From positions 434,001 to 498,000 of the forward strand of contig NZ_VFOU01000001.1 of NCBI RefSeq assembly GCF_006716305.1: a stretch of DNA of 64,000 nt, given 5' to 3'. The stretch is from Enteractinococcus coprophilus. GTDB taxonomy: Bacteria > Actinomycetota > Actinomycetes > Actinomycetales > Micrococcaceae. Shown one piece after another: positions 646 to 15,702 of the stretch. The notes under the pieces are model-generated. The model saw only the letters and a list, made by a program, of their open reading frames with translations, had not been told where the DNA came from and did no database searches. The position numbers and the translations under genes were made by a program. The stretch's first letter is position 1; the number at the start of each line of letters is the position of its first letter.

Positions 646-659
646 CTGCACGAGATAAC

Positions 660-698
660 AAATGCGGGAGCCAGCCTAATGCTGACTCCCGCATTTTT
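660..698. terminator. Bidirectional terminator, first copy of a duplicated element
   Basis: The arms are AAATGCGGGAGCCAGC and GCTGACTCCCGCATTT, with one mismatch and a short loop, followed by a T run. It ends the aldehyde dehydrogenase gene. An almost identical hairpin sits at 1990-2027, on the other side of the toxin-antitoxin pair. Confidence 0.85.
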
Positions 699-709
699 CA
701 TTGAGCTAG

Positions 710-1342
710 TTACCATCGGACCCGAATACCCAACGGAAAGCAGATATCTGCCAGCCAGTTTCTGTCGGGCATCCTGCTGAAAATTCTAGCCACGGAGGGG
801 TCGGCGACGAGCGCATCTGATTCGACGCGGTCACCAAAGAGTACAACCGCTACGGTATCGTTACAGCGATTACTCATCCACGCCACCCCTTCGTATCCTG
901 CACGATGCGCAGCTTGCGCCCAGCGGACAGTCTTGGGATAAGTGTGCATGTCCGATGACGTGAGCGCCTGATGAGTGGTGCCAAGCGCCCGAAGCCCGGT
1001 GCCCATAAACTTTGCTAATTTCAGTGTTCTACGAGTACGAAACGCCGCCATAACTGTCCGCATATAGTCTGCTGGGATGAGGGCGCCACCAGCGGCTGGA
1101 ATATCCCTGAGCAGGGTCTCAGAGATTGCGGCTTCAGCCGAGTACGCTGCGTACAATACCGGAACAATATCTCCGGCATCATCAGTAAAAAATGCAAAAC
1201 GAGTCGGTGCTCCGTAGCCTGGGTTGAAGTCAGTGACTCGTCTCCCACCGTCATTGTTCAAAACCCGGTACAACAGTTGTTGGGTTTGAACAGTAAAGGT
1301 CTCTGCGACTCGTAGACCCGTAGGCCACTGAGTTTCTACCAC
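710..1342 (-). CDS. RES-domain toxin (NAD+-degrading family)
   Basis: This 210-residue protein carries the RES fold pattern. The three residues that name the family are visible: an arginine in LLYRV (R26), a glutamate in the AEAAISETLL helix (E75) and a serine in VAWMSNR (S157). RES toxins of Xre-RES modules deplete cellular NAD+. The start is the GTG at 1342, which overlaps the stop region of the upstream antitoxin gene by 7 bases, so the pair is translationally coupled with the antitoxin first. Assignment to the family is firm. Activity in this strain is inferred. Confidence 0.82.
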   Translation of the reverse strand: MVETQWPTGLRVAETFTVQTQQLLYRVLNNDGGRRVTDFNPGYGAPTRFAFFTDDAGDIVPVLYAAYSAEAAISETLLRDIPAAGGALIPADYMRTVMAAFRTRRTLKLAKFMGTGLRALGTTHQALTSSDMHTYPKTVRWAQAAHRAGYEGVAWMSNRCNDTVAVVLFGDRVESDALVADPSVARIFSRMPDRNWLADICFPLGIRVRW

Positions 1343-1866
1343 TGGGCTCCAAATCGGCCACGGAATACGGCCAGCACCTGTTCGGAGTTAGCAATCACAT
1401 CCACGGGTCGCTTACCACCCAGACTCGGGGACTCCAGGAGAAACCACTGTGCCACATCCTCATCAGTAACGTTAAGCTCCGTGGCTTCACGCAGTACTTG
1501 CAACACTGACTCGTAGATCTCGCCGGACTCGGTGAATTGGAAGCCCGGGTAGCGATAGGCATTGCGCCGAGAAATACCTAAGATTTTGTGAGCTTTCCGG
1601 CGGTCATTGGCGAACCCGCCGGTGGTCTGTTTTGAACCTGAGATCTGCGCTACCGTTCGGCCATCGAGGAAGCCAAACTCCGTTTCCATATCGCGCCAAG
1701 CATTTTCCGTTGCGACAACCCCTGCCGCCATCTGCGGTGAGATCGGTTGTTCCAACGCTTCCACAGCTTCACCCAATAACCGCATGGAATGTACCATCTG
1801 TTGGTATGCAACGGTCTCTTTGATCGCGAACCGCTCTGCTTGAGGGTCGGGCCTATGCGATACCAT
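1336..1866 (-). CDS. Xre/MbcA/ParS-type antitoxin
   Basis: This 176-residue protein lies directly upstream of the RES toxin gene and overlaps it by 7 bases. The middle part (around residues 75-115) contains an arginine- and lysine-rich segment with FANDRRKAHKILGISRRNAYRYP, compatible with a helix-turn-helix. The C-terminal part resembles the DUF2384 toxin-binding domain, including a VDVIANSEQVLAVF stretch near the end. Position, size and partner all fit the antitoxin of a RES module, which normally also represses the operon. The first 50 residues are less typical. A GGAGGG ribosome site lies just upstream of the ATG at 1866. Confidence 0.7.
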   Translation of the reverse strand: MVSHRPDPQAERFAIKETVAYQQMVHSMRLLGEAVEALEQPISPQMAAGVVATENAWRDMETEFGFLDGRTVAQISGSKQTTGGFANDRRKAHKILGISRRNAYRYPGFQFTESGEIYESVLQVLREATELNVTDEDVAQWFLLESPSLGGKRPVDVIANSEQVLAVFRGRFGAQW

Positions 1867-1989
1867 GTGACCCTCCTTTCCTTCGATTCAATCTTATATC
1901 CCTGATAGACGGAAATGAAGGGGCAGGTCATGTGGCCTGCTGAGCTATTTCTGGAATGACGCTGTGCATGTTCTGCCAACACAGATAAA

Positions 1990-2027
1990 AAATGCGGGAG
2001 CCAGCTGATGCTTGCTCCCGCATTTTT
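1990..2027. terminator. Bidirectional terminator, second copy of a duplicated element
   Basis: The left arm AAATGCGGGAGCCAGC is identical to that at 660-675, and the right arm differs at two or three positions. A runs on the left and T runs on the right let it act in both directions. It ends the TPP-enzyme gene transcribed leftward. Confidence 0.85.
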
Positions 2028-2060
2028 CTGAGGCGCTTCCAGCGCCGTCGTCGGTATGTT

Positions 2061-3716
2061 CTAGTAGGCCTGTTTGCGCTGTTCGACGATCAGGTGGATC
2101 AAGGCGAACTTGCCCTGCTCAATGGCCTGATAGGCCTGCTGAATCGCGGCTGGGATCTGCGAGTTCTCGGTGACTCGGATACCGCAGCCGCCGAATGCAT
2201 CGGCCATGGCGGCGAAGTCTGGGTTCTTCAGCTGGGTGCCGGAGACGCGGCCAGGGTAGTCGCGTTCCTGGTGGGTGCGGATGGTGCCGTATTCCTGGTT
2301 ATCCATGACGATGACCAACGGGGTGGCGCCGTATTGGGCGGCGGTGGCCAGTTCTTGACCATTCATCATGAACTCACCGTCACCGGCGACCGTGACGACA
2401 ATCTTTTCTGGGTTATCCAGCGACGCTGTCACAGCCGATGGAATGGAGTACCCCATGGAACCGTTGCGTGCCGAGATCAGCGAGCCATAGTGGTGGGTTG
2501 GGAAGTAGCGGTGTACCCAGTTGGTGTGCTCGCCGGCACCGAAAGTGACCATCGCGTCATACGGCAGGGTTGGCACCAAGTGGGCCATCATGGCATCCAT
2601 TGAGGCGGGGCCGTCGTCGATGCCTTCGGTGGGCAGGGCCGCGAATTCTTCTTGCTGGCGACGCATCTTGGCCGTCCAGTTTGCCCACTCGGGCTTATTG
2701 GGCAGGTCCATGCGCACCAGGTCGCGCACGAAGCTTTCCGGCTTGGCCACAATCTGGTGGGATACCGGACCCGAACGACCACGCAGAGCCGGGTCGATGG
2801 TGACCAGGAAGTTCTTTTTATCCCAGTTCTGTCGAATCGTGAAACCGTCGGTGACGGTGTCACCGGGCACGGTGCCCACGAACACGATGAGGTCGGTTTC
2901 TTCTAAGAGGTCATAGGTGGGTTTTGGCCGACCATAGCCCATCGGGCCAACGTAAGACGGTGAGTCAAACGGGATGGTTCCCTGGGTGCGCCACTCCACG
3001 GCTCCGGCGATCTGGTGGTCTTCTAACCAGCTGCTGAGCTGTTTGGATGCTTCTTCGGTCCAGTCGTTGCCACCGGTAATGAACAGTGGCTTATCGGATT
3101 CCAGCAGCGCGTCGTAGAGCTCTTTCCAGTCGTCAACGGTCATACCGCCGCCGGCCACTGGGATCTGCGGGTGCAGTCGGGCATCGATTTCTTCTTGAAT
3201 AATGTCTTCGGGCAGCCCCACGACGACGGGACCGGGGCGGCCGGAGGAGGCAGCGAACATCGCTTCGGCCACGATCTCGGATGCGCGGTCCGGGTGGTCT
3301 AAGACCATGACGCGTTTGGTACCGGTGCCAAACCAGGCGTGTGGGTCAAATTCTTGGAAGGCTTCCTTTTCGCGGTGTTCGAACGGGATCAGGCCCACGA
3401 ACAGCACCATCGCTGTGGAGTCCTGCCAGGCGGTATGCAGTGCGACGTGCGCGTTAGCTGCACCGGGACCACGGGTCACCATCGCAACACCGGGGGTTTT
3501 GTTGAGTTTGCCGTCGGCCTCAGCCATGTAGGTTGCCCCACCTTCGTGACGGCACACGATGTTTTGAATTGGGGAATCGGCCAGGCCGTCGAGAACATCC
3601 AAATAGGATTCGCCGGGAATCGTGTAGACGCGTTCTACGCCGTGCGCTACGAGTGTGTCGACGATGACGTGACCTGCGGATTTTCGTTGCCCGTTACTAT
3701 TAAGAGGGTATGCCAT
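2061..3716 (-). CDS. Acetolactate-synthase-like thiamine pyrophosphate enzyme
   Basis: This is a 551-residue TPP-dependent enzyme with the three-domain order of the acetolactate synthase/benzoylformate decarboxylase family. The cofactor-activating glutamate is in TIPGES (E36). The C-terminal TPP/Mg2+ motif begins at GDGEF (about 445) and runs to the DNQEYG block. The ATG at 3716 is chosen because AAGGAG lies ten bases upstream; a longer frame to 3779 has no ribosome site. It is a single gene without a small regulatory subunit, so a catabolic role is more likely than branched-chain amino acid synthesis. The butanediol dehydrogenase gene nearby hints at acetoin metabolism, but the substrate is not proven. 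Confidence 0.75.
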   Translation of the reverse strand: MAYPLNSNGQRKSAGHVIVDTLVAHGVERVYTIPGESYLDVLDGLADSPIQNIVCRHEGGATYMAEADGKLNKTPGVAMVTRGPGAANAHVALHTAWQDSTAMVLFVGLIPFEHREKEAFQEFDPHAWFGTGTKRVMVLDHPDRASEIVAEAMFAASSGRPGPVVVGLPEDIIQEEIDARLHPQIPVAGGGMTVDDWKELYDALLESDKPLFITGGNDWTEEASKQLSSWLEDHQIAGAVEWRTQGTIPFDSPSYVGPMGYGRPKPTYDLLEETDLIVFVGTVPGDTVTDGFTIRQNWDKKNFLVTIDPALRGRSGPVSHQIVAKPESFVRDLVRMDLPNKPEWANWTAKMRRQQEEFAALPTEGIDDGPASMDAMMAHLVPTLPYDAMVTFGAGEHTNWVHRYFPTHHYGSLISARNGSMGYSIPSAVTASLDNPEKIVVTVAGDGEFMMNGQELATAAQYGATPLVIVMDNQEYGTIRTHQERDYPGRVSGTQLKNPDFAAMADAFGGCGIRVTENSQIPAAIQQAYQAIEQGKFALIHLIVEQRKQAY

Positions 3717-3906
3717 GAATGGAAAGCTCCTTGACTGAAGTACTTTGCGTTCAGCCCAGTCGCCATTGACCATGGGCAAGCGCTAACCTCTACAAATTAC
3801 CAGCGATATAAGGGATAGTGGAATTTCAGACATTTATTTCCCATCACAAATACACCGCTACAAACATCCAGCACAATCGATCCGACAACCAGGAGAAGAT
3901 TCACGT

Positions 3907-4578
3907 ATGTCCAAGGTCATGATCATTGGCGGTCACGGAAAAGTCGCCCAGCTCGCAACACCTCTACTAGTGCAGGCCGGCCACACCGTAACCTCCATCA
4001 TTCGCAACCCTGACCAAGAAGACACCATCCACACGTTAGGTGCGGTTCCCCTCGTCCTCGACATCGAATCTGCGACCCGGGAAGATTTTGCCAAAGCATT
4101 CCGCGGCCAGGATGCAATCATTTGGGCGGCCGGTGCCGGTGGTGGAAACCCCGACCGCACCTACGCCATTGATCGGGACGCCGCAATCGCCTCCATTGAC
4201 GCCGCGCAGCAAGTTGGGGCCAAACGCTACATCATGGTCTCCTACCTTGGGTCGTCTCTAGAACACGACGTGCCAAACGACAGCCCGTTCTATCCGTACG
4301 CGCAATCCAAGGCCATCGCTGATGATCATCTGATGCAATCCGACCTGGACTGGACCATCCTTGGACCGGGCGCATTAACTCTGGAGGACCCGTCGGACAA
4401 GATCCGTCGAGTTGGACGCATGGCCTCTGACAACCTCGTTGAAGGTGAGAGCAGTGATACGTCGCGTGGCAACGTTGCTCAGGCGGTCCTGTCAGCGCTC
4501 ACCTCCGAGAGGAGCATTCGCACCGTTGTAGATTTTGTCGACGGCGACACCCCCATCAATCACGTCTTCGGGCTCTAA
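3907..4578 (+). CDS. NAD(P)-binding atypical SDR protein (YwnB/NmrA-like)
   Basis: This 223-residue protein begins with a Rossmann motif, MIIGGHGKVAQ, at residues 5-15. It contains the YPYAQSKAIADDHL segment typical of atypical short-chain dehydrogenases of the NAD(P)H-binding, NmrA-like group. These proteins act as small reductases or redox sensors; the reaction is unknown here. An AGGAGA sequence lies ten bases before the ATG. The gene diverges from the TPP-enzyme gene across a 190-base intergenic region and is followed by a hairpin, so it is probably transcribed alone. Confidence 0.65.
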   Translation: MSKVMIIGGHGKVAQLATPLLVQAGHTVTSIIRNPDQEDTIHTLGAVPLVLDIESATREDFAKAFRGQDAIIWAAGAGGGNPDRTYAIDRDAAIASIDAAQQVGAKRYIMVSYLGSSLEHDVPNDSPFYPYAQSKAIADDHLMQSDLDWTILGPGALTLEDPSDKIRRVGRMASDNLVEGESSDTSRGNVAQAVLSALTSERSIRTVVDFVDGDTPINHVFGL

Positions 4579-4591
4579 GACCTTCAACCAC

Positions 4592-4638
4592 AGCAACGCT
4601 CGGAAACCCGCCTTGCAGGTGGTTTCTGAGCGTTTGCT
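4592..4638 (+). terminator. Hairpin after the NAD(P)-binding gene
   Basis: An imperfect long inverted repeat is formed by AGCAACGCTCGGAAACC and GGTTTCTGAGCGTTTGCT, starting 14 bases after the stop. No strong T run follows, so its strength is uncertain. The rest of the 250-base gap to the next gene shows no open frame that I can support. Confidence 0.55.
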
Positions 4639-4829
4639 AGGAAGCCACCAGAATCCCGATTGTGGATCAGTCACAGGCGAAGAGATTCTGGTTCATTTGG
4701 GGGACCACAAGATGTGTGGACCATCCGAGGGTGAACGTCGATAATCCCCTGTTTTCTTTTGGATACAGAGTTGAGACGATGAAATAGCTAGGAAATCTAG
4801 TGTTGTCGACCAACCCAAGGAGGGTCTCT

Positions 4830-5909
4830 ATGACAATGCGAGCAGCTCGTTATTACGACCAAAAAGATATCCGAATCGAAGATATTGAACGCCCCACCCC
4901 TGGAGCCGATGATGTGCTGATCGATATCGCCTGGTGCGGTATCTGCGGCTCCGATCTGCATGAATATCTCGACGGCCCGATTTTCGTGCCAGGTAAAGGC
5001 AACCCGCATCCGATTTCCGGTGAAGAAGTTCCCATCACCCTGGGCCACGAATTCTCGGGCACCGTTGCTGAAGTAGGCGCTAATGTCAGTGACCTTGAAG
5101 TCGGGCAGCACGTCGTCGTTGAGCCCTACATTATCCATGAAGAGTACTGGGGCAAGGAGAACTACCACCTGACACCGGATCAGAACTTTATCGGGCTGGC
5201 CGGGATGGGCGGCGGGCTTGCCGAGCAGATTTCGGTGAACCGCCACTGGGTGCACCCGATCCCAGATAATATCGCACTCGACGAAGCCGCCCTGATCGAA
5301 CCTTTGGCCGTGGCCTATCACGCTTTTGAACGCTCAGGCGCTAAAGAAGGCGACGTCGCCCTGATTGGTGGCGCCGGACCGATCGGCCTTTTGACCGCAG
5401 CGGTCGCCAAAGCCCACGGGGTGACGACCATCATGTCCGAGTTGTCCAAGAAACGTATTGAGACAGCCAAAGACACCGGGGTCGCCGATCATGTGGTGAA
5501 TCCAGCCGAACAGGACGTTGTCCAAGAGGTTATGCGGATCACCGACAATAAGGGTGCCGATGTCGGCTTTGAGGCCACTTCTGTCGACGTCGTACTGAAC
5601 ACCCTATTTTCCGCGGTCAAGAAGGCCGGTGTGATCGTCAACGAATCAATCTGGGGTCATAAGCCGCAGGCAGACCTAGTACAACTGGTGACCAAGGAGC
5701 AGGATCTGCGTGGGACCATTGGGTATCACTTCAGTCACGAGCCGTCCATCAAACTGGTCAGCGAGGGCAAGGTGAACCTCAAGCCATTCATCACCCATAA
5801 GATCGGCCTGGATGATCTGATTGATAAAGGATTCGATACCCTGATCAATCACAACGACACGGCGGTGAAAATTCTTGTCTCGCCGACCGGTAAGGGACTC
5901 GAAGAATAA
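4830..5909 (+). CDS. bdhA: (R,R)-butanediol dehydrogenase, zinc-dependent
   Basis: This 359-residue medium-chain dehydrogenase closely follows the BdhA pattern. It has KDIRIEDIERP near the start, then the catalytic-zinc region WCGICGSDLHEYL and ITLGHEFSG, then the nucleotide-binding motif GGAGPIGLL. The four-cysteine structural zinc loop is missing, as in other BdhA proteins. The family interconverts acetoin and 2,3-butanediol with NAD(H). The ATG at 4830 is preferred because AAGGAGGG sits just upstream, although the frame extends to 4800. A strong hairpin follows. Confidence 0.85.
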   Translation: MTMRAARYYDQKDIRIEDIERPTPGADDVLIDIAWCGICGSDLHEYLDGPIFVPGKGNPHPISGEEVPITLGHEFSGTVAEVGANVSDLEVGQHVVVEPYIIHEEYWGKENYHLTPDQNFIGLAGMGGGLAEQISVNRHWVHPIPDNIALDEAALIEPLAVAYHAFERSGAKEGDVALIGGAGPIGLLTAAVAKAHGVTTIMSELSKKRIETAKDTGVADHVVNPAEQDVVQEVMRITDNKGADVGFEATSVDVVLNTLFSAVKKAGVIVNESIWGHKPQADLVQLVTKEQDLRGTIGYHFSHEPSIKLVSEGKVNLKPFITHKIGLDDLIDKGFDTLINHNDTAVKILVSPTGKGLEE

Positions 5910-5941
5910 CGTGCACGCACAGATAATATAAACAACTCTGT

Positions 5942-5980
5942 CGGGGCACTCAGCACTATTATCTGGTGCTGAGTGCCCCG
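5942..5980 (+). terminator. Hairpin terminator after bdhA
   Basis: A perfect 15-base stem is formed by CGGGGCACTCAGCAC and GTGCTGAGTGCCCCG around a nine-base loop. No long T run follows. Confidence 0.7.
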
Positions 5981-6061
5981 CCGCTATGCCACGCTCCTCG
6001 CGTGTATCCAACCGCGATTGAGCCATAGCCAGTTCACGACTAAAGTTCTTACACTTGTCGC

Positions 6062-7447
6062 ATGGACGAACAGAACAGCCTACCTTCGAAAGCTGCACTC
6101 GTTGCAGGACCGCCAAGCTCGCTGCCCACCGACTTCGGAACGTTCACGCTACGTTCTTATACATTCAACGGCATCACCCATGTAGCGATGACCCTGGGGG
6201 ATCTGGCCGCCGCAGATGCTCCGCTGGTGCGCATGCACAGCGAATGTTTAACCGGAGATGTGCTGGGCTCGCATCGGTGTGATTGCGGAGACCAACTGAC
6301 CGCCTCGCTGGAGGCGATCTCGACAGCAGGGACTGGCATCTTGCTGTATTTACGAGGCCAAGAAGGCCGCGGGATTGGGTTAGAGAATAAGCTGCGCGCC
6401 TATGCGCTGCAAGATACTGAGGGTTTGGATACCGTCGAGGCCAATCGAGCACTGAGTCTGCCCGATGATGCCCGCGATTATCAAGCCGCAGCGCAAATGC
6501 TCATTCATTTGGGATGTACGCGCATCCGGTTGCTGTCATCGAATCCTGCCAAATCCGATGCCTTGACCGCCCTTGGGATCGAAGTCGTTGGCCGGCTGAA
6601 TCTGCAGCTGCCAGACCGTCCAGAAAACAGTGCGTATCTGCAGTCCAAACGTCAGCGTATGAACCATGACGTGCCAACCGGACACCCGGATTTGGATCAC
6701 TCGTTGGAACTGGATGTCTACCGGACCATTGCGACCAATGACGAAGTATTGGCCCAGCTGGCACAAAGTGAAGATGGGTTTATCGCCACCCGCAGCGGCG
6801 ACGCGATGTTCGTCTCCGGCGCGCTGGATCGCCGCCATCTGCACTGCGTTCGTGCAGCCGTGGGGGCGGTTCTGGTGGGTGCCAGCACGGTTGTGGCCGA
6901 CAACCCGCAACTGACCGTCCGTGCGGTCGAAGGAGAAAACCCGACGCGGGTCGTCCTGGATCCGCAAGCGCGTATTCCACGCGACTCACGGGTACTACAG
7001 TCCGGCGATGCTCCCACCATTTGGCTCATCGGCGCAGATACTGAAGTTGAGGGACCACTAGCACCGCACGTCAAGATCGTGCGTCTACCGAGCACCTCGG
7101 CACAGCGCGTTGATCCGCACGCAGTCATTGCGGTGCTGCGTGAACACGTTGAGGGTTCGATTCTGGTGGAAGGTGGCGGACAGACAGTCTCGGAATTCCT
7201 TGCTGCAGGTGCCCTAGACCGATTGTTCCTCACCACCGCTCCGGTATTAATCGGTGACGGCGTCCCGGGCATTCGCTTCGAAGGGTCCGATGACATGGCC
7301 AAGGCGCTGCGCTACCCGTTCCGGCGGTACGTGTTCGGCCAGGATGTGTGCACCGAATATGTGCTGAGCTCTGCTGCACGAAAACACTCCGCCCAGACCC
7401 CGGCTCAGATGCGCGAGGTCGAGGAACAAGAACCGTCAATGGGCTGA
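6062..7447 (+). CDS. GTP cyclohydrolase II fused to a RibD-type reductase domain
   Basis: This 461-residue protein has two enzyme domains. Residues 25-200 are a RibA-type GTP cyclohydrolase II with the zinc ligands C62, C73 and C75 (C-x10-C-x-C) and the GQEGRGIGL motif at 99-107. Residues 235-440 are a RibD_C/dihydrofolate-reductase-like NADPH reductase with VLVGASTVVADNPQLTVR and VEGGGQTVSEFL. The deaminase domain of normal RibD and the RibB domain of normal RibBA are both absent. The pair could convert GTP to a reduced ribitylaminopyrimidine-type intermediate. No ribosome site is seen before the ATG at 6062. The 3' end overlaps the convergent glycosyltransferase gene by 12 bases. Confidence 0.85.
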   Translation: MDEQNSLPSKAALVAGPPSSLPTDFGTFTLRSYTFNGITHVAMTLGDLAAADAPLVRMHSECLTGDVLGSHRCDCGDQLTASLEAISTAGTGILLYLRGQEGRGIGLENKLRAYALQDTEGLDTVEANRALSLPDDARDYQAAAQMLIHLGCTRIRLLSSNPAKSDALTALGIEVVGRLNLQLPDRPENSAYLQSKRQRMNHDVPTGHPDLDHSLELDVYRTIATNDEVLAQLAQSEDGFIATRSGDAMFVSGALDRRHLHCVRAAVGAVLVGASTVVADNPQLTVRAVEGENPTRVVLDPQARIPRDSRVLQSGDAPTIWLIGADTEVEGPLAPHVKIVRLPSTSAQRVDPHAVIAVLREHVEGSILVEGGGQTVSEFLAAGALDRLFLTTAPVLIGDGVPGIRFEGSDDMAKALRYPFRRYVFGQDVCTEYVLSSAARKHSAQTPAQMREVEEQEPSMG

Positions 7448-8413
7448 GACTGAGCGCAGCACATCCACAATGATTTGGGCCGTGGCGTGCCAACCGAAAG
7501 ACAATCGCTGTCTGGCGGTGCGCGCCGCGGCTTTTATCTGGTTTCGATAGTGCGCGTCTTCAAGCCACTGGTGGAGTTTTTCGACCCAGACATTTTCATC
7601 TAGCGGTAGGGCTTCTCCCCCGCCGAGAGCTTCTTCTGCGCCGGTCCCCGCTGTCACAAACGCGGGAACGCCTGCTGCTAGTGCTTCGCGCACGACCAAG
7701 CCAAAAGTCTCAGCTTGCGAAGGTAACAGTAGCAAGTCTGCGCGATGATACAGGGCCGCGAGTTGCGTCGCATCCAGTTCTCCGGCAACAGTGGTCGTGC
7801 CTGCGGGCAGAGTAGCGAGAGTTTGTTGAAGTTGCTGCGCGTAGTCGGCATCGGTGAGTGGTCCGGCAAAGGTGCAGTGCCAACCGGTAACACCGCGCGC
7901 AGTCAACTGCTCTAGAACCTCGGCTAGGAACACTTGGTTCTTGTTGGGTTCCACCGCGCCGACACTGATCAGGCTCCCACCGGTGCCACCTACGGCCATT
8001 GGGCGCTCTTCCACCCCGGGCGTGGCCACAACCGCTTGGACTCCATGGCGCTTGCGCAACTCGTCTGCGGCAAATTGACTCGTGGCAATCACCGCATCTG
8101 CGGCCCGTAGATGCTGCCGCTCGCGTCGTGTGGCCTCCGGTGTCTCGGCCAGGGCATGCACTAGCTGAACTATCGGCCGGTCCTCCGCTAAAGGCGTGGG
8201 CAGCGAACAGCCAATCAGCCCGTCCAGTAACACCGGACCGTCAAGTGAGGCAATCAGCTCTGTGAGTGCCGCAATATCCTGCTCGCTGGGTTCTGGCCAC
8301 CCGCCGGTTATCGCGTGGCGTTGTAGCTGACCCTCTGCGGCGTCAACCACTGCCCAGTTATAGCGCAGTCCCCCGCTGATGCGACCCAGGGCGGGTTCGA
8401 ACAGATGAAACAT
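7436..8413 (-). CDS. Glycosyltransferase family 4 protein
   Basis: This 325-residue cytosolic glycosyltransferase has the GT-B pattern. SVGAVEPNKNQVFLAEVL marks the start of the second Rossmann domain (about residue 165). LLLPSQAETFGLVVREALAAGVPAFVT (about 225-252) is the nucleotide-sugar-binding block with the E-x7-E motif. The ATG shares one base with the stop of the preceding PTPS-like gene (TAATG), so both are translated as one unit. Its neighbours suggest it glycosylates a small pterin- or pyrimidine-like product rather than a cell-wall polymer. That is inference. Confidence 0.8.
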   Translation of the reverse strand: MFHLFEPALGRISGGLRYNWAVVDAAEGQLQRHAITGGWPEPSEQDIAALTELIASLDGPVLLDGLIGCSLPTPLAEDRPIVQLVHALAETPEATRRERQHLRAADAVIATSQFAADELRKRHGVQAVVATPGVEERPMAVGGTGGSLISVGAVEPNKNQVFLAEVLEQLTARGVTGWHCTFAGPLTDADYAQQLQQTLATLPAGTTTVAGELDATQLAALYHRADLLLLPSQAETFGLVVREALAAGVPAFVTAGTGAEEALGGGEALPLDENVWVEKLHQWLEDAHYRNQIKAAARTARQRLSFGWHATAQIIVDVLRSVSAH

Positions 8414-8796
8414 TAACCCCGGTCGGCAACCGTGTAGCTGACGCGAGCGCGGGGGTTTTCGTGAATCGTCACGCTGATGCCAATATCGGGTTGTTCAGCC
8501 AGGCTTGCCGCGAGCTTATCGCCGATGTACTGGGCGATCACCTCACTCGTAGACAGGCGCCCTTCAAAATCTGGGTGGGAGTCTAAGTCAGCGTAGCGCA
8601 ATGGCGCCAACGCGTCATCCAGCAGCTGGGTGGCGTGGCCAATGTCGAGTACCACCGAATGTTCGTCAAGTTCGGGTCGGGTGAAGGTCGCCTCAACGGT
8701 CAGGGTCGCGCCGTGGAGTTGTTGGGCGGGACCAAAGAACTCATTGGGCAGGCTGTGGGCGATCATCACGTAATCGTTGACGGTCAAACTAAACAT
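8413..8796 (-). CDS. Atypical 6-pyruvoyl-tetrahydropterin synthase/QueD-fold protein
   Basis: This 127-residue protein follows the PTPS/6-carboxytetrahydropterin synthase pattern: MIAHSL near the start, then LHGATLTVEATF, then VLDIGHATQLL and LSTSEVIAQYI. In canonical members three histidines bind zinc (H in AAH and both in HGH) and a cysteine just before HGH is catalytic. Here H14 and H28 remain, but the third ligand is Ala30 and the cysteine position is Gln. The chemistry is therefore probably changed. The gene overlaps the dehydrogenase gene upstream by 8 bases and the glycosyltransferase gene downstream by one. Confidence 0.75.
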   Translation of the reverse strand: MFSLTVNDYVMIAHSLPNEFFGPAQQLHGATLTVEATFTRPELDEHSVVLDIGHATQLLDDALAPLRYADLDSHPDFEGRLSTSEVIAQYIGDKLAASLAEQPDIGISVTIHENPRARVSYTVADRG

Positions 8797-9793
8797 TCGG
8801 TGATCCTTTCACGGGTTTGGGGTAGTCAAAGACGTGGCAAAGGGTTGCATCGGCGAATTCACCGGGGGTGGTCGCCTGATCCATGACCTGGGGCAAGTCG
8901 GTCCAATCGGATACCCCGGTGATCAGGTCATCGAAGCGGTCATCGGTCAGGGCGGCCAGTCCGGCTGCTTTGCGTTGGGCGGTCGTGCGACGATGACGAT
9001 GCCCGGGCGGCACCTGGCCGACCTGGCTTGCAATAATACTGAGCCGCCGGGCGTGAAAGTCAGCGCCCAGTGGGACAGCGGGCGCATTTTCGCCATACCA
9101 AGAGGCCTCAATGACCACGGCGTCGTCGCCAACAATTTCTAGTGCCCGGGCGAGCCCTGCTTGGCTGCCGGAGACGTGGATGACGATATCGCAGTCATCT
9201 GCGGCGTCCTCGGGAGCGACCGCGGTGATGCCCCAGTCGGTGAGCAGCTGGCGCCGGGCCGGGTTGAGATCCACGACTTCGAACCGCTCCAGTGGCATGC
9301 GGGAGCAGAGCAGGGCGGTGGCCGCTCCAATCATGCCGGCACCGATGATGGTCACTCGGTCACCGAAGCGGGGCGGGTGTTGCCACAGGATATTGATGCC
9401 GGTTTCGGCGGCTCCGGTGAGCAGTGCGCGATGATCCGAGATGCCCTCGGGAATGGGCAGGACGTCGTCGGGGGTGACGAGGTGGTGGCTGTGGTGTGGC
9501 AGCAGACCGAAGACGCGTTGGCCCAGCCAAGCTTCTGGCCCTTGGTCGACCACGCCCACGGCGAGATAACCGTAGGACACCGGGTAGGAGAAGTCGCCGA
9601 GTTGAGCGGGGCCACGCATGTGCTCGGCGATGCTGTCTGGCACCTGCCCGTTGTGCACCAGGGTTTCGGTGCCTTTGGAGATGGCAGTTGCCGTGGTCCG
9701 AATGCGCAACGGGTGCGCTGCATCGACGTTCGGGGTGGGCACTTCGCGCCAGCTACTTTTACGGGGAGCGGTGGTCCAGTACTGCCAAGCCAT
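8789..9793 (-). CDS. Zinc-binding-alcohol-dehydrogenase-like oxidoreductase lacking zinc ligands
   Basis: This 334-residue protein has the medium-chain dehydrogenase layout: a GroES-like N-terminal half with ISKGTETLV and YPVSYGYLAVGVV, then a Rossmann half starting at VTIIGAGMIGAATALL (about residue 147). The Cys-His-Glu catalytic zinc ligands of true alcohol dehydrogenases are not visible: the usual cysteine region reads ATAISKGTET and the GHE motif is absent. It is the first gene of a three-gene overlapping operon (oxidoreductase, PTPS-like, glycosyltransferase). A role in oxidising the side chain of a pathway intermediate is a guess from context. Confidence 0.75.
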   Translation of the reverse strand: MAWQYWTTAPRKSSWREVPTPNVDAAHPLRIRTTATAISKGTETLVHNGQVPDSIAEHMRGPAQLGDFSYPVSYGYLAVGVVDQGPEAWLGQRVFGLLPHHSHHLVTPDDVLPIPEGISDHRALLTGAAETGINILWQHPPRFGDRVTIIGAGMIGAATALLCSRMPLERFEVVDLNPARRQLLTDWGITAVAPEDAADDCDIVIHVSGSQAGLARALEIVGDDAVVIEASWYGENAPAVPLGADFHARRLSIIASQVGQVPPGHRHRRTTAQRKAAGLAALTDDRFDDLITGVSDWTDLPQVMDQATTPGEFADATLCHVFDYPKPVKGSPNV

Positions 9794-9862
9794 GAGTGCA
9801 GCCTATCGCCTGACCAGCAGTGACGCCATGGTTGAGTGCTGAGAGATCACTGAGGGGGATGG

Positions 9863-11551
9863 CTAGCTTGCGAACTGCTCGTAGGCGTAGGTGGACAGAC
9901 CCACGCTACCGAATTTTGCGGATACCTGCGGAGTCCCCGCCGGGGCGTGCGAGACCATACCAACTGGTCCCTTACCTCGTGGGCATTGCAAGATCAGTAC
10001 GGAAGTGCGTCCCTCATCTGGACGGAGATGCTCCAGGCCGGACCAATCCGATACCGTCCAGTGTTCGGCAGTATGGGGGCCGTAACCGGGCAGCGCCGTA
10101 GCTAAGCCTGCAGGTTCAAATGTCGTCGACATCCATTCCAGCACTGTCCCGTGAGCATCAATAATTTCACGCAATAACGCGCGCACGTCGGCCCCGGTCG
10201 TTGTCCCGATCAGGCCGTCACCGGCTGAACGGTCTTCGAGCCCGGTGATTGTGGTCGATTCCAAGTGCACGACGCTCTGACGAGCGCTTTCCAGGACGTC
10301 GATGCCTACTGTTTCGAGATAATCCAGGATGGCCCGGGTTGCGGCACCGTCCCCGCTGCCGATCATCAGGCGAACGGCGTCGTCAAGGCTGACCTGCACA
10401 TCGCCGGTGAGGTGGCGAAGCGTGCCGGTGTCGGCCAGTGCGCGATGCTGAGCCGTGATCTGCACCGTGTCCTGGAGCAGTTCGGGGCGGTGGCGCGCCA
10501 GCTCATTGAGGGTATAGGCGAGAAACAGTTTTCCGATGCCTGAGAACGTGAAGACCATGCTCTCATTGACGGCACGGCCATCCTCGACGTCGCAGAGGAG
10601 TTCGCCGCACTCTTGTTCCCAGAAATCCGGTGGGACTGCTTCGGGCCGTGCCACTGGCTCGAAGGATCCTCCGAGGTAGAAGGCTTCGAGAAGTTGACCG
10701 AAGTCCATGAACATTTCGCGGGCGGAGTTGCGACCGGGGGTGCCATCGAGCAGTTGCACCGGGATGGATTCGGCAAAGACCGCAACCGAAGCGACCGGGT
10801 TATCATCCTCGTCCAGCAACAGCCCCACCTGGGAGAGTCCCCGGATGCCGCGTCCGTTCTTTTCGACGAAGCGGCCTTTCGTCAGGTGTGCACCCAGTAG
10901 CGGCGTGAAAATATGTCCCATCATGTCGACGGCGACGCTGCAAAGTTCTTGGGTGAGGCCAAGTTCGATGGCGGCCTTCTCATCGCAGCAGCCGCGTGCA
11001 AGCCGCTCTAGTAACAGCGCCTGATCGTGGGCTGAAGTGACCGTCATGCCTTCTATGGAGTGGTGCCATGTCAGTTCACCAGAGCGGGGGAAAATTTCGC
11101 GGTGCAGGGTGTCAAACATTCCGACTTGCGCGCAGTAATCGTTGACCCACTGCAGGCTGTTGCCGGTGGCGTCTTCGATGGCCTGGAATACCAACTGAGT
11201 GCAGATGTTATCGGAGGTAATCATCATCTGTGCAAGATGGTCACGCAAACTCAGCGCAATACCGGCAGACAGGTTCCGCATAATCCCGGCCTGTACGCCG
11301 TCTTTAAGTTCCTCGGTGATGACGAAGGAATCCTCTAGGGATAGCTTGCCCTCACGCACCAACGCCAAACAGGCTAGCAGGACGCTGACCTTTCGAGTGC
11401 TAAAGGAACCCAGAACCTGCCGGGCTTCTTGGCCAATGTATTGGCCAGTGGCGATGTCTCGTACCTGCCAGTGCACAGCAAAAGGGCCCTGTTGCGTGAT
11501 TTGGCGTATACGCTGGTCAAGTTCGTTGAGATTCTGTGTCATACGCTCCAC
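9863..11551 (-). CDS. Tandem-duplicated serine beta-lactamase-like hydrolase
   Basis: This 562-residue protein contains two class-A-beta-lactamase-like units. The first (about residues 20-290) has the nucleophile motif STRK at 51-54, an SDN motif in MITSDNIC and a KGRF motif in the KTG position. The second (about 310-560) has the same spacing but degenerate motifs: SGIGK in place of SxxK and SGD in place of SDN. The second half is therefore probably structural or inactive. No signal peptide or lipobox is visible, which is unusual for a lactamase. The frame starts at a GTG at 11551, with an alternative ATG nine bases later; neither has an ideal ribosome site. Confidence 0.65.
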   Translation of the reverse strand: MERMTQNLNELDQRIRQITQQGPFAVHWQVRDIATGQYIGQEARQVLGSFSTRKVSVLLACLALVREGKLSLEDSFVITEELKDGVQAGIMRNLSAGIALSLRDHLAQMMITSDNICTQLVFQAIEDATGNSLQWVNDYCAQVGMFDTLHREIFPRSGELTWHHSIEGMTVTSAHDQALLLERLARGCCDEKAAIELGLTQELCSVAVDMMGHIFTPLLGAHLTKGRFVEKNGRGIRGLSQVGLLLDEDDNPVASVAVFAESIPVQLLDGTPGRNSAREMFMDFGQLLEAFYLGGSFEPVARPEAVPPDFWEQECGELLCDVEDGRAVNESMVFTFSGIGKLFLAYTLNELARHRPELLQDTVQITAQHRALADTGTLRHLTGDVQVSLDDAVRLMIGSGDGAATRAILDYLETVGIDVLESARQSVVHLESTTITGLEDRSAGDGLIGTTTGADVRALLREIIDAHGTVLEWMSTTFEPAGLATALPGYGPHTAEHWTVSDWSGLEHLRPDEGRTSVLILQCPRGKGPVGMVSHAPAGTPQVSAKFGSVGLSTYAYEQFAS

Positions 11552-11758
11552 GCAGGTCTTTGCAGGAATTAGATGATGATCGTACAGATTGATCGCTAAG
11601 CTCCAGAATAGTCAGTAGAGCCGACCGTTTTGTACATTAGCGACGCATTGTGTCACCAATAGTGCTCACCCCTGAAAGCGCAACGGCGTGAGGTCCACAT
11701 GGAACTTAATCTGTAATGAGTGCTTGAGATTCTACCTTGAGCACACGAGATTAAACCA

Positions 11759-11797
11759 CGAAGGACCGCGGCCACGTGCAGTGACTACGGTCCTTCG
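11759..11797 (-). terminator. Hairpin terminator after the orphan binding-protein gene
   Basis: A ten-base stem is formed by CGAAGGACCG and CGGTCCTTCG around a 19-base loop, just past the stop of the leftward substrate-binding gene. Confidence 0.6.
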
Positions 11798-11808
11798 ATT
11801 GGCGAATG

Positions 11809-12792
11809 TTACTTCAGGAACAGCTCTTCTTCAGTTGGAGCTTCGTCAATGAAGTTGTACTTGTCAGCAAGTTCGACCATGAACATCAGCTGTTCACGAT
11901 TGACCTCACCATCGAGACGTTCCATGACGAGTTCTTGTGCGGCTTCTTCAGGGATCTCTAGGAACTCGACCAGCAGTTCACGCGAGCCTTCCTGATCCTC
12001 TTGTGAAGCAGCCAGGGCTGCCTTCATGGCCTCCCCGAAGTCGGCGACCATTTCTGGGTCTTCTTCAGCAAGCTGCCCCGAGGTGAAGGTGACCATCGTT
12101 GCCATGCCTGGGTCGGTTTCTTGGAATGAGTATCCGACGAGTTTATTTTCTTCGTCATCGAGCATCTGGGACAGGAAAGGTTCTGGAATCCAGACGGCAT
12201 CGGCATTGCCGCGTTCCAGCTGAGCCGGCATGTCAGGGAAGCCCATCTCGGAGAAATTGACCTTAGCTGGGTCTGCGCCATCTTCTTCCGCGAGATAGGT
12301 GACGGTCAGGTCGCCCAGGGTGTTCAGTGCGTTGACCGCGGTGGTTTTGCCTTCGAGGTCGGCCCAGGTTTCAATACCCGAGTCGGCGCGCGTGACCACA
12401 CCGGCCACGTCATTCCCCTCTTCCAACGAGTTTGAGTAACCGGCCACGATCTTCATGTCCAGCCCCTGGTCAACCGCAGTGGTGACAGACAGTGGGTTGC
12501 CAACGCCAAAATCCAACTGGCCTGCAGAAACCGCAGGGAGCATGGCAGCGCCGGCACTGGAGATTTCATAGGTCACGTCAAAGCCGTGTTCTTCGAAGAT
12601 GCCGTTTTCAATACCGTAGGCTACGCCCACGCTCGGTGCGATACTCAGTACACCGACGGTGACTTCGCGGAGCTCTTCGGTCTCGCCGCCAGCTTCACTA
12701 CCGCCCTCGCCCCCATTGCCGCCACCGCATGCGGTGAGCATCAGGGCTGCTGCTGCAGCTGTTGCAAAACCAGATAGGAATTTCTTCTTCAT
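11809..12792 (-). CDS. ABC transporter substrate-binding lipoprotein (NMT1/SsuA-like), orphan
   Basis: This 327-residue lipoprotein has a charged start MKKK, a hydrophobic segment and the lipobox LTAC (Cys22), followed by a glycine- and glutamate-rich linker. The mature part follows the NMT1/THI5/SsuA pattern: VTVGVLSIAPSVGVAYGIENGIFEEHGFDV, then an AGQLDFGVGNPLS segment. No permease or ATPase gene is adjacent. It strongly resembles the binding proteins at 26944-27945 and 38066-39052, and only the former has transporter genes beside it. It may deliver a different ligand to that shared importer. The ligand is probably an aromatic or sulfonated acid, which is inferred from context only. Confidence 0.82.
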   Translation of the reverse strand: MKKKFLSGFATAAAAALMLTACGGGNGGEGGSEAGGETEELREVTVGVLSIAPSVGVAYGIENGIFEEHGFDVTYEISSAGAAMLPAVSAGQLDFGVGNPLSVTTAVDQGLDMKIVAGYSNSLEEGNDVAGVVTRADSGIETWADLEGKTTAVNALNTLGDLTVTYLAEEDGADPAKVNFSEMGFPDMPAQLERGNADAVWIPEPFLSQMLDDEENKLVGYSFQETDPGMATMVTFTSGQLAEEDPEMVADFGEAMKAALAASQEDQEGSRELLVEFLEIPEEAAQELVMERLDGEVNREQLMFMVELADKYNFIDEAPTEEELFLK

Positions 12793-13107
12793 ATATTCTC
12801 CCGGTGAGAGTGCCTCCAGCGCGCATCGGTGTGCCGCTAGAAGAAAGGAAATGAATAACTGATGGGTGATGGAAATAAAAGGTTCAGAAAGTATTAATCA
12901 ACTTGTTCATCAATTGAAGTTAACAATAGACGAACTCTCCCACGAATGGAAGAGTTCTTGGCGTCAATTTGTGACGCACATTACAGCAATGTGATGGTAC
13001 TACAAACGCAATCCTGAAGGGACCCTTGACGGTGATCTCTTCTGAAGACGCCACAGCCTGCGGAAGGGATTACCTTCCACAGGCTGCTTCACATCGGCGC
13101 GTAGGTC
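12793..13107. other. Intergenic stretch upstream of the orphan binding-protein gene
   Basis: No convincing coding frame is present. It contains the AT-rich leader of the binding-protein gene, a weak hairpin (GAACTCT at 12932 and AGAGTTC at 12951) and, at its right end, the terminator at 13054-13086. Confidence 0.5.
13054..13086 (-). terminator. Terminator of the side-chain-shortening operon
   Basis: The stem CAGCCTGCGGAAGG pairs with CCTTCCACAGGCTG with one mismatch, around a five-base loop. It follows the MaoC gene, the last gene of the leftward operon. Confidence 0.7.
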
Positions 13108-13578
13108 TTACGCGTAAAAGCGTGACAGGAATGTTGCCACGACAGCTGGACGTTCTTCGCCTTCGATTTCAATAACGCCGTTGGATACCAGGTGTAGACC
13201 GTTGCCTTTGACTTCCTGGACGTCGGTGATTTCGGCTTTCATGCGGATGCGAGCACCGGCTTTAACCGGGTTAGTGAAGCGCACCTTATCCAGTCCGTAG
13301 TTGACCTTGGTGGTGACACCGGTGACGTCAAACAGCTCTGACCAAAAGGGAATGATCAGGGACAAGGTCAGGAATCCGTGGGCGATCGGCGCACCGAATG
13401 GGCCTTCCTTGGCACGCTCCACGTCGGTATGGATCCATTGGTGGTCACTGGTTGCATCAGCGAAGGTATTGATCATGCCTTGGGTGATGGTCATCCATTC
13501 GGTGACACCCAGATCGGTGCCGACCATATTGGCAACTTCTTCAAACGGGACAACGGTGCGGGCAGTGGTTTCAGTCAT
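13108..13578 (-). CDS. MaoC-family hydratase/dehydratase
   Basis: This 156-residue single hot-dog protein has the hydratase 2 motif around DATSDHQWIHTDVERAKEGPFGAPIAHGFLTLSL (about residues 45-78). The conserved Asp and His of the D-x4-H type lie in that block. MaoC proteins add water to enoyl-CoA thioesters. The ATG at 13578 is preferred because AAGGA lies about 11 bases upstream; a TTG three codons earlier would sit on the ribosome site. It is the last gene of an operon with an acyl-CoA dehydrogenase, an amidohydrolase and an SDR. It probably takes the place of the enoyl-CoA hydratase in a hydroxycinnamoyl-CoA pathway. Confidence 0.82.
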   Translation of the reverse strand: MTETTARTVVPFEEVANMVGTDLGVTEWMTITQGMINTFADATSDHQWIHTDVERAKEGPFGAPIAHGFLTLSLIIPFWSELFDVTGVTTKVNYGLDKVRFTNPVKAGARIRMKAEITDVQEVKGNGLHLVSNGVIEIEGEERPAVVATFLSRFYA

Positions 13579-13615
13579 GGGGATCAAGTTCCTTTATAGG
13601 TAGGTAGAGGTCGAA

Positions 13616-14794
13616 TTAGACGAATGCGCTGATGCCGGTGATCGAGCGTCCGACGATCAGTGCGTTAATTTCGTGGGTGCCTTCATAGGAGTAGACGGCT
13701 TCGGCGTCGGCGTGGAAGCGTGCGACGTCGGTATCTAAAGTGATACCGTTGCCGCCGCATACTTCGCGTGCCAGGGCAACGGTTTCACGCAGTTTTTTTG
13801 CGGTGAACATTTTAGCCATCGCCGAGTTCTCGTCTTTATAGATGCCGGCTTCTTGCTGATCGATCAGCTGCAGTGCCATGGCCACCGAGGCGGTCACGTT
13901 GGACAGCATCGTGGCCAGTTTTTCCTGGATCAACTGGAACCCAGCAATCGGTTTGCCAAATTGCTCGCGCTGCGTCGTGTAGCGGACGGCCGCTTCGTAA
14001 GCACCGGCCATAGCACCGGTTGCAATAAACGATGCATCCGAACGCATCAAGCGCAGGCAAGCGGCCACATCTTTGAACGAGTTGATGTTCTTCAGACGGG
14101 CGTCGTCGTCCACCTGCACGTTCTCGTAGGTAATGTGGGCGTTTTGCATGATGCGCAGCGAGGCTTTGCGTTCGATCTTTTCCAACGTCACCCCGGCGGC
14201 TTCGCGTGGGACCAGGAATGCCTTGACTTGGTTATCTGCGGTGTCGCGGGCAAACGTGCAGATCACGTCGGCGCGGAAAGCACCACCGATCCAGCGCTTT
14301 TCGCCGCTGATCGTCCAGGTGCCATCGGCGTTTTGAGTTGCGCTGGTCTGCAGGCCGCGGGCGACATCCGAACCATTCTCTGGCTCGGTCAACGCGAACA
14401 CACCTAGCAGGTCGTAATTGGTGACTTTTGGATCGAGTTCGGCAACCTGATCAGGGTCGCCGCCTTGATTGATGACGGTGCGGAACAGGCCGGCCTGGGC
14501 ATTGAAGAACGTGACGATATTGATGTCGCAGCGGGCCAGTTCAAAGGTTCGCATGGCTTCAAAAATGCCACGGACGGGTTCACCGGCTGCTTTCAGTGCC
14601 GGTGGGTCCATCAGACGCAGCGATTCCAGCGGTTCGATGACTTCTTCGGGGAACCGGTCGTCGCTCCAGGCGTCGTTGAGATACGGGTGGACTTTTTCAT
14701 CCAGCGTGGTGCGCAATTCAGCGAGCACGGTTTTCTCAGTGTCGGTGAGCCGATCCGAAAAACCATAGACATCCCAGATGGGTTCGCGTGTCAT
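13616..14794 (-). CDS. Acyl-CoA dehydrogenase
   Basis: This 392-residue FAD enzyme has the standard acyl-CoA dehydrogenase layout. FALTEPENGSDVARG (about 135-150) and the GEKRWIGGA block contact flavin and substrate. The catalytic base is the glutamate in YEGTHEIN (E371). It introduces a 2,3-double bond into acyl-CoA thioesters, and the pattern is closest to glutaryl-CoA-type members. The gene overlaps the stop of the amidohydrolase gene by four bases, so it is translationally coupled. In the phd operon of Corynebacterium glutamicum a dehydrogenase of this kind lets dihydro (phenylpropanoid) acids enter the same route. I infer the same role here. Confidence 0.85.
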   Translation of the reverse strand: MTREPIWDVYGFSDRLTDTEKTVLAELRTTLDEKVHPYLNDAWSDDRFPEEVIEPLESLRLMDPPALKAAGEPVRGIFEAMRTFELARCDINIVTFFNAQAGLFRTVINQGGDPDQVAELDPKVTNYDLLGVFALTEPENGSDVARGLQTSATQNADGTWTISGEKRWIGGAFRADVICTFARDTADNQVKAFLVPREAAGVTLEKIERKASLRIMQNAHITYENVQVDDDARLKNINSFKDVAACLRLMRSDASFIATGAMAGAYEAAVRYTTQREQFGKPIAGFQLIQEKLATMLSNVTASVAMALQLIDQQEAGIYKDENSAMAKMFTAKKLRETVALAREVCGGNGITLDTDVARFHADAEAVYSYEGTHEINALIVGRSITGISAFV

Positions 14795-15702
14795 GCGGCA
14801 GCCTCCTGATCAAGTCCCAGCAGCTTGACCGCATTGTCTTTGAGAATCAACGGGCGGACCTCGTCTTTAATCGGCAGGTCTTCGAATGCGGCCATCCACT
14901 TGGTTGGTGGGATCAGCGGGTAGTCGGTACCAAATAGCACCTTGTGCTTCAGCACATTATTGGACTGACGCACCAGCGATTCTGGGAAGTACTTCGGCGA
15001 CCAGCCCGACAGGTCAATGTAAACGTTGGCCTTGTGGGTGGCAATCGAGTTCGCTTCGTCCTGCCACGGCACCGAAGGGTGAGCCATAATGATCGGCAGG
15101 TGGGGAAAATCAGCGGCGACCTCATCCAAGAGTAGCGGGTTCGAGTACCCCAGTTTGATGCCGGCACCGCCGGGCAGCCCTGCACCCATACCGTTCTGGC
15201 CGGTGTGCGATAGGATCGGCAGGCCGATGTCCTCGAGTGCTTCCCATAGCGGGTAGAACTGGCGGTCGGATGGGTCAAAGCCCTGCACCGACGGGTGGAA
15301 TTTGAACCCGCGCACACCGAGTTCATCGGCTTGGCGTTTGGCTTCTTCGATCGCGGCATCACCATTGCGGGGATCCACCGAGCCGAATGGCAACAGCACG
15401 TCGTTATTGCGTAGCGCACCGGCCACGAGATCATCAATCGAGTTTGGCAGGTGCCCGTCAAACTGGGTGCGGGCATCCAAGGTGAAGACGACGGCGGCCA
15501 TACCCAGCTCGCGATAGGTTTCAGCAATCTTGTCGATTGACGGGGTGCGATCCTCGGACTTAAAGTATTTGGCCGAGGCTTCGTAGAAGACCTCCGGCAT
15601 GGGCTTATGTCCTTCATCGTCCATTTCAATATGGACGTGCACGTCCACCGCGGAGATCGCGGAGACGTCAATCTTGGATTCGTATTTTGCCACAGATATC
15701 AC
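14791..15702 (-). CDS. Amidohydrolase-family hydrolase (CouO-like)
   Basis: This 303-residue metal-dependent TIM-barrel hydrolase has the N-terminal metal motif VDVHVH (H22 and H24). A histidine lies in PILSHTGQNG, another in PIIMAHPSVPW, and an aspartate in VLFGTDYPL. In Rhodococcus the amidohydrolase CouO cleaves the beta-ketoacyl-CoA formed from p-hydroxycinnamates, replacing a thiolase. The same partners here (SDR, CoA ligase, MarR) support that role. The start is the GTG at 15702, immediately after the stop of the SDR gene, so translation is coupled. Family membership is firm; the substrate is inferred. Confidence 0.75.
   Translation of the reverse strand: MISVAKYESKIDVSAISAVDVHVHIEMDDEGHKPMPEVFYEASAKYFKSEDRTPSIDKIAETYRELGMAAVVFTLDARTQFDGHLPNSIDDLVAGALRNNDVLLPFGSVDPRNGDAAIEEAKRQADELGVRGFKFHPSVQGFDPSDRQFYPLWEALEDIGLPILSHTGQNGMGAGLPGGAGIKLGYSNPLLLDEVAADFPHLPIIMAHPSVPWQDEANSIATHKANVYIDLSGWSPKYFPESLVRQSNNVLKHKVLFGTDYPLIPPTKWMAAFEDLPIKDEVRPLILKDNAVKLLGLDQEAAA

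Follow-up and report, generated by a model that had tools for sequence, protein, structure and literature searches.

A compact PTPS-IV gene cassette in Enteractinococcus coprophilus, probably a mobile side branch of riboflavin biosynthesis

What is made by four tightly packed genes at positions 6062-9793 of a 64,000-nucleotide stretch of Enteractinococcus coprophilus contig NZ_VFOU01000001.1 (the whole stretch is called the window below)? A first-pass annotation made from the letters alone had described them as a compact uncharacterised pathway comprising a GTP cyclohydrolase II (GCHII)-RibD fusion, a PTPS-fold protein, a dehydrogenase and a glycosyltransferase. We consider it rather probable that these genes are a mobile, compact biosynthetic cassette of PTPS-IV type that forms a side branch of riboflavin biosynthesis and whose product would be a glycosylated 2-amino-4-oxo-pyrimidine or pterin. 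The open reading frames are as first described, and so are their overlaps, of 12 bases between the fusion and the family 4 glycosyltransferase (GT4), 1 base between GT4 and PTPS, and 8 bases between PTPS and the medium-chain dehydrogenase/reductase (MDR). With Pfam domains called at E<=0.001, the block reads as follows.

6062..7447, + strand: GCHII-RibD_C reductase fusion, 461 aa (open reading frame with Pfam, NCBIfam and PDB matches)
6119..6598, + strand: GCHII domain of the fusion (PF00925, E=1.7e-60, aa 20-179)
6746..7267, + strand: RibD C-terminal reductase domain of the fusion (PF01872, E=1.2e-35, aa 229-402)
7436..8413, - strand: GT4 glycosyltransferase, 325 aa (PF00534, E=1.3e-22; EX7E spacing)
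8413..8796, - strand: PTPS-IV T-fold protein, 127 aa (PF01242, E=3.5e-21; motif MIAHS...FGPAQQLHGAT)
8789..9793, - strand: MDR dehydrogenase, 334 aa (weak NCBIfam matches; AlphaFold2 fold)

The MDR-PTPS pair, rather than the fusion, is the conserved heart of the unit. Relatives of the window PTPS were picked from a species-genome collection by query peptide patterns (80 kept of 112), and these loci plus the window, 81 in all, were searched with profiles built from the loci themselves; many loci stop at contig ends, so that all partner counts are lower bounds. MDR is present in 78 of the 81 loci, on the same strand as PTPS in 77 of the 78 and at most 179 bp from it in 73, and GT4 is present in 70, on the cassette strand in 69 and within 115 bp in 68. 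The hosts belong to at least five phyla, including Actinomycetota, Pseudomonadota, Acidobacteriota, Bacteroidota and Myxococcota. Since this set had been selected on query peptides, 198 genomes of the order were surveyed by a profile search independent of that selection. PTPS was found in 32 genomes, and MDR (E<=1e-60) in 34, including all 32; the MDR survey scored 11 candidate places per genome, so that a few MDRs could be missed. Among the 30 of these 32 PTPS loci that were read, one of them the window's, MDR is adjacent in every case and GT4 in 29. A failure of the four genes to co-occur elsewhere was looked for, and they do co-occur; the recurrence in other genomes that the first-pass annotation had mentioned is thus borne out both in the order and across phyla.

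Within the genus the block also behaves as a unit: at one and the same site it is either there in full or missing. PTPS occurs in four of nine genus genomes and the full-length fusion in exactly these four, and another GCHII occurs in all nine, that of G002 having a stop inside its open frame. The site was compared in the window's genome and in G001-G004, G006 and G008. The block of the window, like that of G006, is bordered by a butanediol-dehydrogenase-like gene on one side and a beta-lactamase-fold gene on the other, the latter being about 3 kb further off in G006. In the block-less G001, G008 and G003 these two flanking genes are adjacent, with 127, 127 and 40 bp between their aligned ends. 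The block of G004 stands beside the beta-lactamase-fold gene with the dehydrogenase flank missing, and the contig of G002 begins at MDR. The GC content of the block is 61.0%, compared with 57.2% for the window, which places it in the upper 4% of equal-length pieces. The host genome is 2.88 Mb long with completeness rated 100%, and the closest named relative found is Enteractinococcus helveticum (Micrococcaceae), with 94% PTPS identity. PTPS matches occur in 20 of 72,556 plasmid records. Two of the three plasmids opened, from Ca. Thiodictyon syntrophicum and Methylosinus trichosporium, each have genes for MDR, PTPS, GT4, methyltransferase and RibD-type proteins in one group, and in the segment viewed the group of the former is flanked on either side by transposase genes.

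Part of this is in print. A PTPS family cluster of 561 sequences (cluster 62), preferentially carrying an FGPAQ signature, has been named PTPS-IV, and its gene neighbourhood contains PF00925 and PF01872 (PMC5445326). The present locus agrees with that subfamily of COG0720 in both respects, the two domains being fused here at 6062-7447. As far as the available parts of PMC5445326 and PMC5041015 go, the MDR, GT4, methyltransferase, CDP-alcohol and sulfatase partners are unnamed there; block-wise presence and absence and the fused GCHII-RibD_C are further additions of this locus. The recurrent unit supports the earlier description of a compact pathway, but the kind of locus is already known as a PTPS-IV neighbourhood, and what is new here is the set of partners, the occurrence of minimal as well as extended forms, and an MDR lacking zinc ligands. 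A search of the open-licence literature, which leaves most subscription papers outside, gave no assigned product for this cluster. A study of bacterial structural colour connects the colour of colonies with a pterin gene cluster, and its main text, so far as accessible, contains none of the cassette enzyme names searched for (PMC11260094).

Compared with solved PTPS, the PTPS-IV protein is changed at catalytic and zinc-binding positions. Residue conservation was recounted on 30 of the 32 order-survey hits, the window's own among them. The catalytic Cys is replaced by Gly22 and the catalytic His by Tyr68 in all 30, and the residue at the Asp position differs between sequences, with Arg67 in the window protein. 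Two zinc histidines, H14 and H28, are kept, and the third is Ala30 in the window (Ala in 28 and Val in 2 of the 30). FGPAQ (residues 21-25), H14, H28, T31, Y68, E85 and E113 are invariant. The window protein keeps Thr83, Ser84 (Thr in most relatives), Glu85 and Glu113, whose counterparts in rat PTPS presumably hold the pterin. Assignment to PTPS-I, -II or -III (queuosine QueD, tetrahydrobiopterin PTPS and folate PTPS; motifs CxxxHGH, CxxxxxHGH and ExxHGH) was considered and rejected: in the window's GPAQQLHGAT, Cys and Glu are missing at the places needed, and HGA replaces HGH. The best solved relative is SCO6650 of Streptomyces coelicolor (PDB 3d7j; 3.4e-29 by single sequence and 2.3e-60 by profile), which shares the FGPAQ...HGAT site but is listed as uncharacterised. 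SCO6650 is reportedly without zinc, triad or PTPS activity, and we take a GCHII paralogue, SCO6655, to lie near it in S. coelicolor. With the triad and a zinc ligand lost, PTPS chemistry cannot be assumed for PTPS-IV. These losses, together with the retained substrate-anchoring residues and the near-inseparability of MDR and PTPS, would also suit a protein that is no enzyme but a carrier or scaffold presenting a pterin-like intermediate to MDR as the real catalyst. The invariance of FGPAQ, His14, His28 and Thr31 suggests a kept active-site function, however, and we regard a scaffold as improbable.

The MDR has no Pfam match at E<=0.001, and its NCBIfam matches are weak only: HpnZ (33.3 bits), BchC (32.2 bits) and threonine dehydrogenase (20.3 bits). 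Its AlphaFold2 model (pLDDT 94.3) has an MDR fold, and the best 15 Foldseek matches of the model are alcohol and polyol dehydrogenases at TM 0.70-0.77 and 12-17% identity. An alignment of 10 of the 78 MDRs with three BchC sequences fetched from Halochromatium genomes shows that the family has Arg, Lys or Pro within SxGTE at the position of the zinc-enzyme Cys, and that GY replaces the GH of GHE. We take this Cys and the His of GHE to be the catalytic zinc ligands of zinc-dependent MDR alcohol dehydrogenases; the window protein has SKGTE and GYL at these places and so lacks both. The three BchC proteins carry STGTE and GYESVG there, so that BchC and the cassette MDR share membership of the MDR family and SxGTE and GYxxVG where zinc ligands would stand; they differ in that the window MDR scores far beneath the BchC cut-off (TIGR01202; 32.2 versus 291.25 bits). 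By sequence, the cassette MDR thus appears to be a distantly BchC-like protein that lacks the usual zinc ligands. The reaction of BchC, oxidation of a tetrapyrrole's hydroxyethyl side chain, may serve as a reasonable model for side-chain oxidation on a pterin. In the two annotated plasmid cassettes, PTPS is labelled a queuosine-type enzyme and MDR zinc-binding; the residues bear out neither label.

In the fusion, only PF00925 and PF01872 were found by Pfam, which confirms that it keeps GCHII and the RibD reductase while lacking the deaminase and the 3,4-dihydroxy-2-butanone 4-phosphate (DHBP) synthase domain of RibB. The GCHII zinc cysteines C62, C73 and C75 and R138 are kept in 30 of 30 aligned sequences, and Y114 is found in the window and in 27 of the 30, the other three having Leu, Met and His; we assume that Y114 is the equivalent of E. 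coli RibA Y105 and that the zinc and catalytic roles are as in that enzyme. The best solved match of the RibD_C domain is 6p8c, a 2,5-diamino-6-ribosylamino-4(3H)-pyrimidinone 5'-phosphate reductase (1.1e-25), followed by the RibD entry 7lrh (4.5e-23). The residue after SxDG, presumably Lys in riboflavin RibD, varies among relatives (Phe, Tyr, Arg, Lys, His or another residue) and is Phe in the window protein; its replacement hints at altered substrate use. In six loci (L034, L044, L047, L066, L087 and L091) the cassette GCHII makes up the C-terminal portion of a longer protein (about 400 aa); the N-terminal half, perhaps a worn RibB, gave no Pfam match in the one examined (L044). Elsewhere in the window's genome, three RibD_C-like genes lie inside 2 kb (G000:C1:294257-296194).

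On a tree of the 78 MDRs, all 11 fusion loci fall in one supported clade of 19 (100/99), and the other eight members are Nesterenkonia nested inside it, some inner forks lacking firm support. The fusion requires two changes on this tree, and none of 500 shuffles was as low. This distribution fits one origin of the fusion and one loss, in Nesterenkonia; two origins may be an alternative. Six Nesterenkonia genomes (the check covered those other than L022, L024 and L027) have the MDR-PTPS pair and no fusion; each has just one GCHII match, of the riboflavin-operon type, and an ordinary RibD match lies about 2 kb from it. The dedicated GCHII-RibD thus probably disappeared from this lineage, leaving MDR and PTPS in place. 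Retention of the pair after loss of the fusion fits a branch fed from riboflavin precursors. The four-gene set of the first-pass annotation does recur elsewhere, but its core is the pair, which persists in these six genomes without the fusion. The Halochromatium genome G214 has a RibD_C with 45% identity to that of the window, on a different contig from the MDR-PTPS pair.

A plausible pathway, its order of steps taken from the protein families, would run as follows. The GCHII domain, judging from its domain family and kept residues, would open GTP to 2,5-diamino-6-ribosylamino-4(3H)-pyrimidinone 5'-phosphate. The RibD_C domain would then reduce the ribosyl to a ribityl chain without deamination, as archaeal and fungal reductases do. 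PTPS-IV may grip the 2-amino-4-oxo edge through Glu113 and Thr-Ser-Glu 83-85 and, having lost its Cys-Asp-His triad and one zinc His, may carry out a metal-free step on the pyrimidine or on a pterin-like ring derived from it. MDR, from its fold and kinship, would oxidise or reduce a side-chain hydroxyl with NAD(P)(H), and GT4 would add a sugar; E235 and E243, at the EX7E spacing that we take to be the GT4 motif, are at least 90% conserved in 29 relatives. The parts and the fold suit the glycosylated pterin- or pyrimidine-type product suggested at the outset, a product that we infer.

In larger loci further enzymes accompany the cassette. A class I methyltransferase without Pfam match is found in 52 of the 81 loci, a CDP-alcohol phosphotransferase (PF01066) in 44, an LPG-synthase-TM/flippase-like protein (PF03706, LPG_TM) in 31, a sulfatase-domain protein (PF00884), for which several transmembrane segments are predicted near the N-terminus, in 25, and an FkbM methyltransferase in 10. 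With kinship uncorrected, as in all partner associations here, the CDP-alcohol enzyme accompanies LPG_TM in 30 of 31 loci and the sulfatase-domain protein in 24 of 25, and is found in none of the eight loci with an MdoH-like glucosyltransferase. The CDP-alcohol enzymes retain DG-xx-AR-x8-G-x3-D-x3-D, presumably the motif of their family. The sulfatase-domain protein, which we take to resemble LtaS/OpgB in layout only, has no useful solved relative, the sole match being the transmembrane part of a receptor, and two examples examined have no NCBIfam match. The MdoH-like glucan glucosyltransferase stands by the cassette in several proteobacterial lineages (L044, L047, L059, L075, L080, L084, L089 and L094, and the plasmid locus L169), as if replacing the CDP-alcohol enzyme or vice versa.

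In such loci, the methyltransferases, CDP-alcohol phosphotransferase, flippase-like protein and membrane sulfatase-domain protein may finish the product at the membrane. It is rather unlikely, though conceivable, that the full pathway makes a new class of membrane lipid. In that case the CDP-alcohol phosphotransferase would join a glycosylated, methylated ribityl-pterin or diaminopyrimidine to a phosphatidyl or phospho-polyol group, the LPG-synthase-TM protein would flip the lipid and the sulfatase-domain protein would decorate it on the outer side, the window carrying a reduced, soluble-glycoside version. If this holds, the headgroup would be redox- or light-active and shared across phyla, and the lipid itself would be of a new, cofactor-like kind. 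The evidence for this envelope reading comes from loci with more genes than the window's, and the reading would apply to the window only if those genes lay elsewhere in its genome. With one relative's protein each as query, close homologues of the methyltransferase and the CDP-alcohol enzyme were found in one of nine genus genomes (G002) and not in the window's; the CDP-alcohol query, which sees close homologues only, had no match whatever in eight genus genomes. The window's product is therefore probably a simple core glycoside.

Several observations weigh against a dedicated pathway for such a glycoside. Within reach of the pair, GCHII is found in only 36 and RibD_C in 57 of the 81 loci, both being lower bounds, and seven loci have MDR and PTPS alone, so that steps 1, 2 and 5 (GTP opening, reduction and glycosylation) rest on a subset of loci plus the Nesterenkonia argument. 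Three of the 81 loci lack MDR at the score used (L042, L051 and L024, the last with fragments only), two surveyed genomes (G038 and G082) have MDR without PTPS, and G173 has MDR-PTPS without GT4. The Streptomyces anthocyanicus plasmid (L167) carries a solitary protein of the PTPS-IV profile that lacks FGPAQ; its neighbour is a MEKHLA-domain protein, and the 18 kb stretch around it has no MDR or GT4 match. The choice of the first 80 loci by query peptide patterns is a bias, and the proposed reactions and product all derive from family membership.

Another kind of product would be a soluble bioactive azapteridine or pyrimidine compound. The routes to toxoflavin and pseudoiodinine likewise start with GCHII and RibD-type enzymes (PMC9911603), and the patchy, partly plasmid-borne distribution of the cassette would suit such a compound. 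However, the downstream enzymes differ: PTPS, dehydrogenase and glycosyltransferase are absent from the gene list given in the part of PMC9911603 consulted, and the WD-40 and sulphatase-modifying-factor proteins listed there are not found among nine window open reading frames scanned. The CDP-alcohol/flippase/sulfatase module of larger loci points instead to the envelope, and an azapteridine therefore seems doubtful.

That the fusion is a spare riboflavin gene raising flavin supply, with the other three genes as unrelated neighbours, is very unlikely. Both of its domains belong to the riboflavin pathway, with which it shares the first enzyme, GCHII, and the reductase domain. A lack of other riboflavin genes in the strain was looked for, but the genome holds a second, canonical GCHII and RibD and a complete riboflavin operon elsewhere, made up of RibD (with its deaminase), riboflavin synthase, RibBA and lumazine synthase. 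The fusion, which differs from RibBA and RibD in having neither deaminase nor DHBP synthase, is therefore an extra and, as the first-pass annotation held, not a normal riboflavin gene. Its restriction to PTPS-bearing genus genomes and the joint recurrence of MDR, PTPS and GT4 in several phyla argue the same way, and the spare-gene explanation was rejected on the complete operon. A role in coenzyme F420 synthesis can be dismissed almost entirely: an unpublished remark linking PTPS-IV to this archaeal cofactor is quoted in the part of PMC5041015 seen, and CofH above cut-off is somewhat commoner with PTPS (8 of 32 versus 17 of 166 other genomes), but at E<=1e-20 no CofH match turned up in the window's own genome, and 17 of the 32 PTPS-positive genomes have no CofH match and seven more sub-threshold matches only, which contradicts F420 as a general product in the order.

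Flanking the cassette, 4800-5909 encodes a threonine/butanediol-type zinc dehydrogenase and 2061-3779 an acetolactate-synthase-like thiamine pyrophosphate (TPP) enzyme of the NF006052 subfamily. In three block-less relatives these two genes also lie close together, and they look like a separate route. The 562-aa protein at 9863-11551 matches Beta-lactamase2 (PF13354) in two stretches and scores far under the class A beta-lactamase cut-offs; it is perhaps a tandem serine hydrolase and, by these scores, would not be a resistance gene. An Rfam scan of positions 1-16000 gave no riboswitch match at gathering score, and a promoter and terminator scan of 5800-10000 gave nothing beyond chance level.

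The PTPS-IV cassette thus represents a conserved pathway without assigned chemistry, which 32 of 198 surveyed genomes of the order carry and which extends over at least five phyla. The partner list, together with the four-gene minimal form and a genus whose members naturally have or lack the block at a single site, puts its product within direct reach of comparative metabolomics and lipidomics.

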